A DNA stretch of 64,000 nt, from assembly GCF_030848565.1 (NCBI RefSeq), contig NZ_JAVDDV010000005.1:124001-188000 (forward strand). The letters are read 5' to 3'. Below are positions 23,719-55,744 of the stretch, in pieces (within the stretch, counting starts at the first letter, position 1; each line of letters opens with the position of its first letter). A program made the translations under genes and the position numbers. The notes under the pieces were generated by a model. It was not told the origin of the DNA. It did no database searches and worked only from the letters and a program-made list of their open reading frames with translations. The DNA comes from Natronolimnohabitans sp. A-GB9. Its GTDB lineage: Archaea; Halobacteriota; Halobacteria; Halobacteriales; Natrialbaceae.

Positions 23719-23911
23719 GGACTTCTCCTCACCGTCCTGTTCACGGTCCTACGAACGGAACTACCGAGAGCACGTTCTCGAGCCCCCGTCTGCATGAGTG
23801 CGCCAGCAGATCGCTCAACCGGACACTCTCCCTACCACGGATAGCCGCCGACCGCGGCCGCGCCGGGTTCGATTGCCGTCAGGTCGGCACTCGCGTTTCG
23901 AGGACGATACC

Positions 23912-24925
23912 ATGTCACTCGCATCCTACGACCTCCACGAACGCCTCGATCGCCTCTCGTCTGCGGCCGCCGACCGCGACATCCTCGTTTCTCTGGCCGT
24001 GCCACCGGAACAGAGCATCGGCGAGGCCCGCCAGCCCGTCGAGACCGACTACGCGGAGGCGAGCCAGCCCGACGAACAGTCGTTTCCCGAACCGCTGACG
24101 GACGCCGTAGAGACCGTCCGCAGTGAGTTACACGAGTACGAGGAGATTCCCGACAACGGCCTGGCGATCTACGCCGGCGCACCCGACGGCGACCTCGTGA
24201 CGGCCGTCTTCGACGACCTTCCCGTCCCGATCGAGGAGTCGATCTACCGCCACGGAAACGAGTTCGACCTCGAGCCCCTCGAGGACGTCACCGAACCCGA
24301 ATCGACACACGGCCTGCTGGTCGTCGAACGCGGCGGTGCCGCGCTGGGCGTCCTCGACGACGAGGGCGTCGAGCCGACCGACACGCTCGAGAGCGACGTC
24401 CCCGGGAAATCGAGCGCCGGCGGCCAGTCGGCCGAACGGAGCTTCCTCGGCGACGAACCCGTCGACAGCGTTCTCCTGGGCGGAACGACGGGAGCGGTCG
24501 AGACGTTTCGCGAGGAGGCCGACCTCGACCACCGACTCGAGGACCGCATCGTCGGTGAGTTCGCCGTCGAGTACGCTACCCAGCAGGGTCTCGAGCAACT
24601 CGCCGAGACGGGTCAGGAGGCGATCGAAGAGCGCGACCGCGAGCGGGTACGGGAGTCTCTCGAGGCGTTTTTCGACCGCGTCGGTGACGACGACGAGCCC
24701 GTCGTGTACGGCCGCGACGACGTCGACGACGCCCTCGAGTTCGACGCGGTCGAGACGCTGTTGCTCTCGACAGCCCTCGAAGGCGACACGCTCCAGAAGT
24801 TCGGTGAGCGGACCGAACGGCAGGGTGGTGAGACAGTCGTCGTTCCGGACGACTTCCCCGACGGAAGCTGGTTCGCGACGGCGTTCGATGGCATCGGAGC
24901 GCTGTTGCGGTTTCCGATCGACTGA
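23912..24925 (+). CDS. Vms1/aRF1-like protein with GGQ motif
   Basis: A 337-residue release-factor paralogue. The centre resembles domain 2 of aRF1: E-P-L-E-D-V, G-L-L-V-V-E-R, then VPGKSSAGGQSAER with the peptidyl-tRNA-hydrolysing GGQ at 170-172. The C-terminal 140 residues match domain 3 (A-V-E-T-L-L-L-S, a Q-G-G-E-T-V-V-V segment, F-D-G-I-G-A-L-L-R-F-P). The stop-codon-reading NIKS domain is missing, and the helix after GGQ is shortened. This fits the Vms1/Ankzf1 and baeRF group, which frees nascent chains from stalled ribosomes without reading a stop codon. The start MSLASYD at 23912 is preferred to a frame opening 114 bases upstream. Confidence 0.85.
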   Translation: MSLASYDLHERLDRLSSAAADRDILVSLAVPPEQSIGEARQPVETDYAEASQPDEQSFPEPLTDAVETVRSELHEYEEIPDNGLAIYAGAPDGDLVTAVFDDLPVPIEESIYRHGNEFDLEPLEDVTEPESTHGLLVVERGGAALGVLDDEGVEPTDTLESDVPGKSSAGGQSAERSFLGDEPVDSVLLGGTTGAVETFREEADLDHRLEDRIVGEFAVEYATQQGLEQLAETGQEAIEERDRERVRESLEAFFDRVGDDDEPVVYGRDDVDDALEFDAVETLLLSTALEGDTLQKFGERTERQGGETVVVPDDFPDGSWFATAFDGIGALLRFPID

Positions 24926-25007: not shown

Positions 25008-25358
25008 ATGTGTGCGACCTTCAGCGACGAGGATATCGACAAACCCGTCGAGCGGGCCGACGGGAAGGTTATCGGGACCATCGGATCCGTCGAAGGGAAC
25101 CGCGCCAGAGTCGAGCCCGCGCCCGACGTCGTCGATACGATCAAGGCTCGGTTCGGCTGGGCGGAGATCGACGACCCGTTCACCCTCGATGCCGACGCCG
25201 TCGACGCGATCACCGAGACGAGAGTCCACCTGGAAGAAGGGTTCTCTCGCGACGGCGCGACGGACACGCGGCCTGAACCGGATCGGGAGACCGAGACCGA
25301 GTCGGAGTCGGGCCGAGACACGGCGGACGAACCCGGCAGTCCACAGCCCGATCGGTAA
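25008..25358 (+). CDS. PRC-barrel-like protein, tandem copy 1
   Basis: A 116-residue protein. Residues 1-80 form a small beta domain of PRC-barrel type (MCATFSDEDIDKPVE, G-K-V-I-G-T-I-G-S-V-E-G, then I-K-A-R-F-G-W). The rest is an acidic, disordered Glu/Asp/Pro tail. Relatives in this window are the next gene and 55499-55744. PRC-barrel domains are found in RNA-processing proteins such as RimM and in many haloarchaeal proteins of unknown role. TTTTC at about -26 would give a leaderless start. It is the second gene after the Vms1-like gene, 82 bases away on the same strand. Confidence 0.8.
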   Translation: MCATFSDEDIDKPVERADGKVIGTIGSVEGNRARVEPAPDVVDTIKARFGWAEIDDPFTLDADAVDAITETRVHLEEGFSRDGATDTRPEPDRETETESESGRDTADEPGSPQPDR

Positions 25359-25452: not shown

Positions 25453-26085
25453 ATGTGTGCAATGTTTACTGATGACGATGTCGGCAAGCCCGTCGAGAAC
25501 GGTAACGGCGAGGAAGTCGGCGTCGTCGCCTCGGTCGATGGGGACCGCGCCCACGTCAGACCGACCGTCGACGCGGTCGACTCCGTGAAATCCTCGATCG
25601 GCTGGGAGGGTGTCGCCGACGTGACACGGCCGCTCGAGGCGGAATCGATCCGGGAGATCACCGACGAGGCCGTCCGCCTCGAGGGGACTCTCCCGGTAGA
25701 AGACAAAGAGGACAGTGGCGCCGAAGCCGATCCGACGGCACGGGCCCGGGGCGACGACACCGGAACGGAGCGAAAGCGTGGCCTCGAGGCTGATCCCACC
25801 GAGTTGATCGGGGACCGAGAGCCCGGCGTTCGAACCGGGATCTCCGTCGACCCCGACGAAGACTACGAGCCGACCAACGCCGCAATCGATCCCAACGAGG
25901 ACTACGAGCCGACCAACGCCGCAGTCGATCCCGACGCCATCACCGACCCGGAGTCAGCAGACGGCGAACCGACGAGCGAGGACACACGCGAGACGGACCT
26001 CGAGGACGGTCCCGAACAGGAGCGACTGACCGACTTCGGGGACGAGACGGAGTCGGGCGAGTGTGACGACAGCGAGGAACGCTAA
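25453..26085 (+). CDS. PRC-barrel-like protein, tandem copy 2, with internal repeats
   Basis: A 210-residue paralogue of the preceding gene; both open with M-C-A-x-F-(S/T)-D and share the G-W...D-x-x-x-x-L-E/D-A spacing. The N-terminal 80 residues are the PRC-like domain; the remaining 130 are acidic and disordered. They include two tandem copies of a 14-residue unit, D-E/N-D-Y-E-P-T-N-A-A, at about residues 135-162. A TATA-like CTTTACAC lies about 26 bases upstream of the ATG, so each copy probably has its own promoter. Its stop overlaps that of the convergent winged-helix gene by four bases. Confidence 0.78.
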   Translation: MCAMFTDDDVGKPVENGNGEEVGVVASVDGDRAHVRPTVDAVDSVKSSIGWEGVADVTRPLEAESIREITDEAVRLEGTLPVEDKEDSGAEADPTARARGDDTGTERKRGLEADPTELIGDREPGVRTGISVDPDEDYEPTNAAIDPNEDYEPTNAAVDPDAITDPESADGEPTSEDTRETDLEDGPEQERLTDFGDETESGECDDSEER

Positions 26086-54148: not shown

Positions 54149-55405
54149 ATGAGCCAGGAGGGCGAGCAGGAGCATTCCGACCGGAAGAAATACGAGTTCC
54201 GGAAGGTTCTCGAGGATCTCAAGGAGTACGAAGGCTCCGGGACACAGCTCGTAACGATCTACGTGCCGGAGGACCGCCAGATCAGTGACGTCGTTCAACA
54301 CGTCACACAGGAACACAGCGAAGCGGCTAACATCAAGTCCAAACAGACCCGAACGAACGTCCAGGACGCATTGACGAGCATCAAAGACCGGCTCAAGTAC
54401 TACAAAGAGCCACCCGAAAACGGGATGGTCCTGTTTTCGGGCGCGGTCGACTCCGGCGGCGGCCGTACCGAGATGGTCACGAAGGTCCTAGAAAACCCGC
54501 CCCAGCCCGTCCAGTCGTTTCGCTACCACTGTGACTCGGCGTTTCTGACCGAGCCACTCGAGGAGATGATGGCGGACAAGGGTCTGTACGGCCTGATCGT
54601 CCTCGACCGACGCGAGGCAAACGTCGGCTGGCTGAAAGGCAAACGCATCGAGGCCGTCAAATCTGCCTCTTCGCTCGTCCCCGGCAAACAACGGAAAGGA
54701 GGCCAGTCCGCACAGCGATTCGCCCGCCTGCGTCTCGAGGCCATCGACAACTTCTACCAGGAGGTTGCAGGGATGGCCAACGACCTGTTCGTCCCCAAGC
54801 GCCACGAGATCGACGGGATTCTCGTCGGCGGTCCATCGCCGACGAAAGACGAGTTCCTGGACGGCGACTACCTCCACCACGAGCTCCAGGACGAGGTCAT
54901 CGGCAAGTTCGACGTCGCCTACACCGACGAGTCCGGCCTGAAGGACTTAGTCGACAACGCCGAAGACGCGCTGGCCGACGCCGAGGTGATGAAAGACAAG
55001 AAGGTGATGGAGGAGTTCTTCGAGGAACTCAACGCGGGCGAGCTCGCGACCTACGGCTTCGAGCAGACCCGTCAGAACCTGATGATGGGCGCCGTCGACC
55101 GGCTGCTCATCAGCGAGGACCTCCGAAAGGACGTCATCACCTTCGACTGTTCGGAGTGTGGCAACACCGACCGCGAGGTGATCGATCGGCGTAAATCGAC
55201 GCCCGATCACACCTGTACCGACTGTGGCGCCGAGGTCGAAGCAAGCGAAGAGGACCGTGAGGATGCGATCGATCACCTGATCGAGATCGCCGAACAGCGC
55301 GGCACCGAGACCAAGTTCATCTCGACGGACTTCGAGAAGGGCGAACAGCTCTACAACGCTTTCGGCGGTTTCGCCGGACTCTTGCGGTACAGCACCGGCG
55401 TCTAA
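54149..55405 (+). CDS. prf1: Peptide chain release factor aRF1
   Basis: A 418-residue translation termination factor that reads all three stop codons and triggers peptide release. Domain 1 carries the stop-codon-recognising NIKS (residues 61-64). Domain 2 carries the GGQ at 184-186 in V-P-G-K-Q-R-K-G-G-Q-S-A-Q-R. Domain 3 has a zinc-binding C-S-E-C-G and C-T-D-C-G (about 333-360), and the end F-G-G-F-A-G-L-L-R-Y is typical. It forms a natural comparison for the GGQ-bearing paralogue at 23912-24925, which lacks NIKS. The length is normal. Confidence 0.97.
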   Translation: MSQEGEQEHSDRKKYEFRKVLEDLKEYEGSGTQLVTIYVPEDRQISDVVQHVTQEHSEAANIKSKQTRTNVQDALTSIKDRLKYYKEPPENGMVLFSGAVDSGGGRTEMVTKVLENPPQPVQSFRYHCDSAFLTEPLEEMMADKGLYGLIVLDRREANVGWLKGKRIEAVKSASSLVPGKQRKGGQSAQRFARLRLEAIDNFYQEVAGMANDLFVPKRHEIDGILVGGPSPTKDEFLDGDYLHHELQDEVIGKFDVAYTDESGLKDLVDNAEDALADAEVMKDKKVMEEFFEELNAGELATYGFEQTRQNLMMGAVDRLLISEDLRKDVITFDCSECGNTDREVIDRRKSTPDHTCTDCGAEVEASEEDREDAIDHLIEIAEQRGTETKFISTDFEKGEQLYNAFGGFAGLLRYSTGV

Positions 55406-55498: not shown

Positions 55499-55744
55499 CT
55501 AGAGCGTCCCGCGGAGATAAACCGCGTCGTCCGTGATCTTCTCGATACTGCCCTCGTCTAACGGATGGGCGTCGTCGCTTCGCGTTCCCCAGCCGAGTTT
55601 CGCCTTGATCGTCGCCGTCAGACTCGGATCGGGTTCGACGTAGCCGCGGCCGTCTTGGACGTCGACGAGTCGACCGATTTCGGTTCCATCGGTATTCAGA
55701 ACCCGTTTCCCCTCGTCGTCTTTGGTGAGCCGCTGCTTGGTCAT
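55499..55744 (-). CDS. PRC-barrel-like small protein
   Basis: An 81-residue protein of the same beta-domain type as the pair at 25008-26085, without any tail. It has L-T-K-D-D-E-G-K-R-V-L-N at the start, a G-R-G-Y-V-E-P strand and the T-I-K-A-K-L-G-W to E-K-I-T-D-D-A-V-Y-L-R-G-T-L end. The comparison shows the domain alone is the conserved unit. The ATG at 55744 is chosen because the conserved domain follows at once. Role unknown; RNA- or membrane-linked functions are known for PRC-barrels. Confidence 0.8.
   Translation of the reverse strand: MTKQRLTKDDEGKRVLNTDGTEIGRLVDVQDGRGYVEPDPSLTATIKAKLGWGTRSDDAHPLDEGSIEKITDDAVYLRGTL

Follow-up and report, generated by a model that had tools for sequence, protein, structure and literature searches.

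The route from a release factor to a rescue or hibernation factor is known mostly from its end points, namely aRF1, Pelota, Vms1 and Balon. In eRF1, GT and YxCxxxF are stop-codon contact motifs. Pelota has no catalytic Gln, and its N domain is Sm-like; VLRF1 families lack the stop-codon or the Pelota domain (PMC6514570), and Vms1-type proteins are without both and have different domains instead; this 2019 release-factor survey treats the baeRF and VLRF1 clades, and no 'halo-' word appears in its main text. For NIKS and GGQ, we follow the roles given in PMC10901736, where Balon is described as an A-site binder lacking both motifs. A 2026 study that looked for proteins lacking NIKS and GGQ reported putative archaeal Balon from Methanosarcinia, Syntropharchaeia and Thermoplasmatota; its main text uses neither 'Halobacteria' nor 'haloarchaea' (PMC13324472). 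Our literature search found no described haloarchaeal aRF1 paralogue, which does not prove absence.

The window analyzed here, a 64,000-nucleotide stretch of Natronolimnohabitans sp. A-GB9 (contig NZ_JAVDDV010000005.1, positions 124,001 to 188,000), contains such a paralogue together with the canonical aRF1 of the same genome. The features referred to are as follows:

23912..24925, + strand: NIKS-less aRF1 paralogue of 337 amino acids, with an ATG start as in relatives (start conserved in the family alignment)
23924..24295, + strand: eRF1-type domain 1 (residues 5 to about 128), full length, without the stop-codon motifs
24065..24076, + strand: NIKS position, here QPDE (residues 52-55), from the family alignment
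24419..24427, + strand: GGQ motif (residues 170-172), from sequence and alignment
24439..24440, + strand: point at which 66 bp (22 codons) were deleted in frame; in relatives, GCCGARCGG near-repeats lie on either side of the missing stretch
24650..24919, + strand: eRF1 domain 3 (Pelota-like, C-terminal; residues 247-336), without a zinc-ribbon insert
25008-25358 and 25453-26085, + strand: two small homologous genes downstream of the paralogue, with no Pfam match
54149..55405, + strand: canonical aRF1, used as comparison sequence, with NIKS, GGQ and zinc ribbon all present

Upstream of its ATG, the reading frame of the paralogue runs on without a stop as far as a GTG at 23798. The product, VPGKSSAGGQSAER, shows 25% identity with the canonical aRF1 (54149-55405) in an alignment of almost full length (tblastn, E about 2e-34), and the homology is far beyond chance. 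Pfam matches were obtained for eRF1_3 (E 8e-17) and eRF1_2 (E 4e-11) with hmmscan, while eRF1_1 alone gave no score. Against the NCBIfam aRF1 equivalog model, TIGR03676, the paralogue reaches 197.4 bits, below the cut-off of 234.7, and the aRF1 reaches 567 bits. The preliminary description of this DNA had taken the gene for a release-factor paralogue whose GGQ is intact, and the tblastn, TIGR03676 and two Pfam results bear this out. That description had also considered the stop-codon (NIKS) domain to be missing, which proved wrong. Residues 6-177 of the paralogue align with residues 15-192 of the haloarchaeal aRF1 4af1 (phmmer), and a profile built from 33 family members aligns with 4af1 over the whole length (E 1.8e-96), covers the whole of the Aeropyrum aRF1 3agk (positions 4-357) and matches the isolated human eRF1 N-domain 2llx (positions 8-129, E 9e-18). 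As domain 1 aligns with both aRF1 and eRF1 N-domains, it was not deleted; the motifs alone were lost.

The paralogue thus resembles aRF1 in its three-domain order, in the VPGK..GGQSAxR context of its GGQ and in its whole-length alignment. eRF1 domains 1, 2 and 3 and GGQ are all present, as in canonical aRF1, with domain 2 cut by the 22-residue deletion. It differs in that NIKS is replaced by QPDE, GT by RD and YxCxxxF by YxHxxxF (Cys to His), all three motifs being absent throughout the window clade. The zinc-ribbon insert of haloarchaeal aRF1 domain 3 is likewise absent from every family member, although there are true aRF1 proteins that are just as short. In the host genome, eRF1 domain 3 was found in three proteins: aRF1, the window paralogue and a protein of contig C12 with weak aRF1 likeness, which is most likely Pelota. 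With a separate aRF1 and this third protein, the host does not need the paralogue for normal termination. With Pelota/Dom34, the family shares eRF1 domain 3, and Pelota's role is an ABCE1-linked rescue, but the N domain of the family is of the eRF1 type, and GGQ is mostly kept.

Members of the family are patchily spread, being found in 48 of the 292 genomes of the class among the matches listed, a count that depends on the search cut-off and may leave out weak members. Of 52 aligned members, 11 have all three reading motifs (one with HIRS in place of NIKS), 41 have none and no mixed state occurs. A maximum-likelihood tree of 92 rows, aRF1 proteins included, supports both the aRF1 clade (100/100) and a clade of the 41 motif-less proteins (100/99), with the placement of two long-branch members (L093 and L094) being unsure. 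The basal members, several of them plasmid-borne, keep all three motifs; eight of those with motifs lie on secondary contigs as near-identical ORFs of 380 codons, resembling genes that are called prf1 on annotated plasmids. GGQ is kept in 31 of the 41 motif-less members. In the other ten, it was replaced in three dissimilar ways, of the VAEETPSLDSAPEE, VPSKQDATGR and REDNPTSGALG types. The tree forces no more than one GGQ loss, and independent losses therefore rest on how different these replacements are; as ten members in three sequence contexts lack GGQ, catalysis is not essential to every member. dN/dS among close orthologues is about 0.10-0.21, indicating a gene under selection. No PADLOC defence model was matched, and scans of viral contigs found no relatives.

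In four genomes of a haloarchaeal family other than Natrialbaceae, f2 (G010, G222, G237 and G424), abce1 and the paralogue share a strand, abce1 coming directly before the paralogue and about 40-190 bp separating the two. In the same family, G418 has abce1 and the paralogue at contig ends, an arrangement compatible with adjacency, G419 has a frameshifted paralogue remnant 164 bp downstream of abce1, and G039 is an exception. The link is confined to f2. ABCE1 is the archaeal ribosome-splitting ATPase, as described in PMC7196836, and the adjacency points to ribosome recycling or rescue. The Natrialbaceae order, namely a FilR1-type regulator, an EamA transporter, the paralogue, one or two small proteins and an alpha/beta hydrolase, is conserved among genomes too closely related for it to say much. 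The window copy adjoins the EamA transporter and the two small proteins, and most Natrialbaceae loci have at least one such small gene downstream on the same strand; this speaks for a conserved gene order, without proving a partnership.

The family is, in our view, best explained as a codon-independent release and rescue factor derived from aRF1, some branches of which would be catalytically dead A-site binders, and we give this reading a probability of roughly 0.5. According to this reading, an archaeal aRF1 was duplicated to yield the haloarchaeal paralogue family, whose members would enter the A site with no need for a stop codon and bring GGQ to the peptidyl-transferase centre, freeing the nascent chain from stalled ribosomes, with ABCE1 then splitting the subunits or having already done so. 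Such a role would be analogous to that of ArfB/ICT1, but built from aRF1, and would supply archaea with a candidate codon-independent release activity. That stop-codon reading was lost and GGQ was not suggests peptide release that does not depend on a stop codon. The all-or-none loss of NIKS, GT and YxC (11 versus 41), the single clade of motif-less members, most of which keep GGQ, the low dN/dS, the abce1 neighbourhood and the separate aRF1 of the host all argue for this reading, and the ten GGQ losses, the lost helix of the window copy described below, the restriction of the abce1 link to one family and the low confidence of the structure models argue against it. Release without stop-codon reading, as proposed in the preliminary description, is thus a fair inference for the family, given the joint motif loss, the retained GGQ and the four abce1 loci, while for the window copy itself it is doubtful.

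The reason lies beside GGQ. All other GGQ-bearing members that were compared, including the same-genus orthologue of G292 (L095), carry a stretch of 22 residues (FERDRERQKREFFDEVADRAER or the like) that separates GGQSAER from the next strand; in the window copy, this stretch is missing altogether. At the DNA level, the gap is a clean 66 bp, exactly in frame. The lost stretch corresponds to FARLRLEAIDNFYQEVAGMAND of aRF1, which, from what is known of eRF1, we take to be the long helix behind the GGQ loop. With this helix deleted, hydrolase activity becomes doubtful, and the window copy probably has reduced activity or none, so that its role may be confined to A-site binding. Structure models from five-row alignments had a mean pLDDT of 42 for the window protein and 43 for an intact orthologue, too poor for a comparison of folds. 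In these low-confidence models, the helix after GGQ spans residues 174-203 in the orthologue (pLDDT about 60-66) and is a 5-residue stub in the window protein, consistent with the deletion. Compared with its closest relatives, the window gene has a dN/dS of 0.15-0.19, no different from what these relatives give among themselves, and the window branch of the tree is no longer than its sister branches. Selection on the window gene thus looks unrelaxed, and either the damage is recent or the gene still serves a purpose that needs no normal catalysis.

These losses should also be considered in terms of a Balon-like hibernation factor, i.e., a plug that binds the A site of idle or stalled ribosomes and protects or inactivates them. 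If GGQ is dispensable for such a plug, its loss in ten of the 41 NIKS-less members with three dissimilar replacements, as well as the window deletion at normal dN/dS, would be tolerated; Balon itself, an A-site binder without NIKS or GGQ (PMC10901736), has the same eRF1 architecture, and some family members weakly match hibernation-factor models. Nonetheless, the window paralogue keeps GGQ, and 31 of the 41 members keep it together with its flanking residues, which would be superfluous for a plug and hazardous on an idle ribosome holding a nascent chain; ten relatives are without both NIKS and GGQ. The hibernation-factor matches are, moreover, far under the cut-off (42 versus 320 bits, and 21.4 bits for the window paralogue). 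We regard a plug role for the family as rather unlikely, yet the GGQ losses and the window deletion still lend it some weight.

The preliminary description had assigned the gene the function of Vms1/Ankzf1, i.e., a quality-control factor freeing chains from split 50S subunits. The two share a GGQ-type release domain without a stop-codon motif, adjacency to abce1 would place the action after splitting, the host genome encodes an NFACT/RqcH-type protein, and there is a weak match to the acVLRF1 model (31 bits in Pfam, and 34 bits in NCBIfam, where the cut-off is 125). The assignment is, however, not supported by the architecture, as the paralogue keeps both the stop-codon and the Pelota-like domain, unlike Vms1 and other VLRF1 proteins, and its best score, to aRF1 (197.4 bits), is far stronger; nor did an NFACT gene stand out among the conserved neighbours of the family loci. 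A similar role on split subunits is accordingly given little credence. As a side observation, contig C12 of the host (174188-181899; L158, L096) carries the NFACT/RqcH-type gene and the Pelota-like eRF1_3 gene within about 8 kb.

A functionless duplicate, decaying and already lost from most haloarchaea, would account for the patchy distribution, the window deletion and the broken copies, which include one lacking its N-terminal half in G020 (L062, 5842-6501), a frameshifted one in G282 (L090, 6001-7168) and the remnant in G419. The low dN/dS of both the window branch and its sisters, the unexceptional length of the window branch, and the GALLRFPI C-terminus and other invariant positions conserved in the 33-sequence alignment make such decay improbable. 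An ordinary intact member in which faulty assembly or sequencing mimics the 66-bp deletion could be suspected from the stretch being kept by all other GGQ-bearing members compared and from the window species being represented by one genome, but is unlikely, given that the gap is exactly in frame between short direct near-repeats that suit natural slippage and are too short to confuse an assembler.

A more far-reaching history can be proposed, although tentatively, as we would sooner doubt than accept it in full. The aRF1 of the haloarchaea would have given rise to a release factor that needs no particular codon and works with ABCE1, and this factor in turn, between one and three times, to a Balon-like A-site factor that is catalytically dead, with intermediates of every step surviving. 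The surviving states are NIKS and GGQ both present, GGQ without NIKS, GGQ without NIKS and with the GGQ helix deleted, and neither motif. The family appears to form a graded series inside one genetically tractable archaeal class. It also presents an annotation hazard: the same-genus NIKS-less orthologue (L095, 6001-7077) scores 239.4 bits and passes the NCBI aRF-1 equivalog cut-off of 234.7, so that automatic annotation would label it a termination factor.

Several minor observations were made along the way. A third homologue of the small downstream genes, also without a Pfam match, adjoins aRF1 on the opposite strand (55502-55744). That a block duplication left both aRF1 and the paralogue with a small gene beside them was considered and dropped, as, in the stretches checked, the small gene lies beside aRF1 in the window genus alone. 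On the Haloferax mediterranei plasmid pHME132 (L165, 5001-7802), the gene of a PemK/MazF toxin and an aRF1 paralogue (prf1) are about 1 kb apart. Finally, the 'putative cell division protein' of Halorubrum virus BJ1 (AM491333.1; L164, 982-2049) has all three eRF1/Pelota domains in Pfam and is thus a virus-borne Pelota-like factor.
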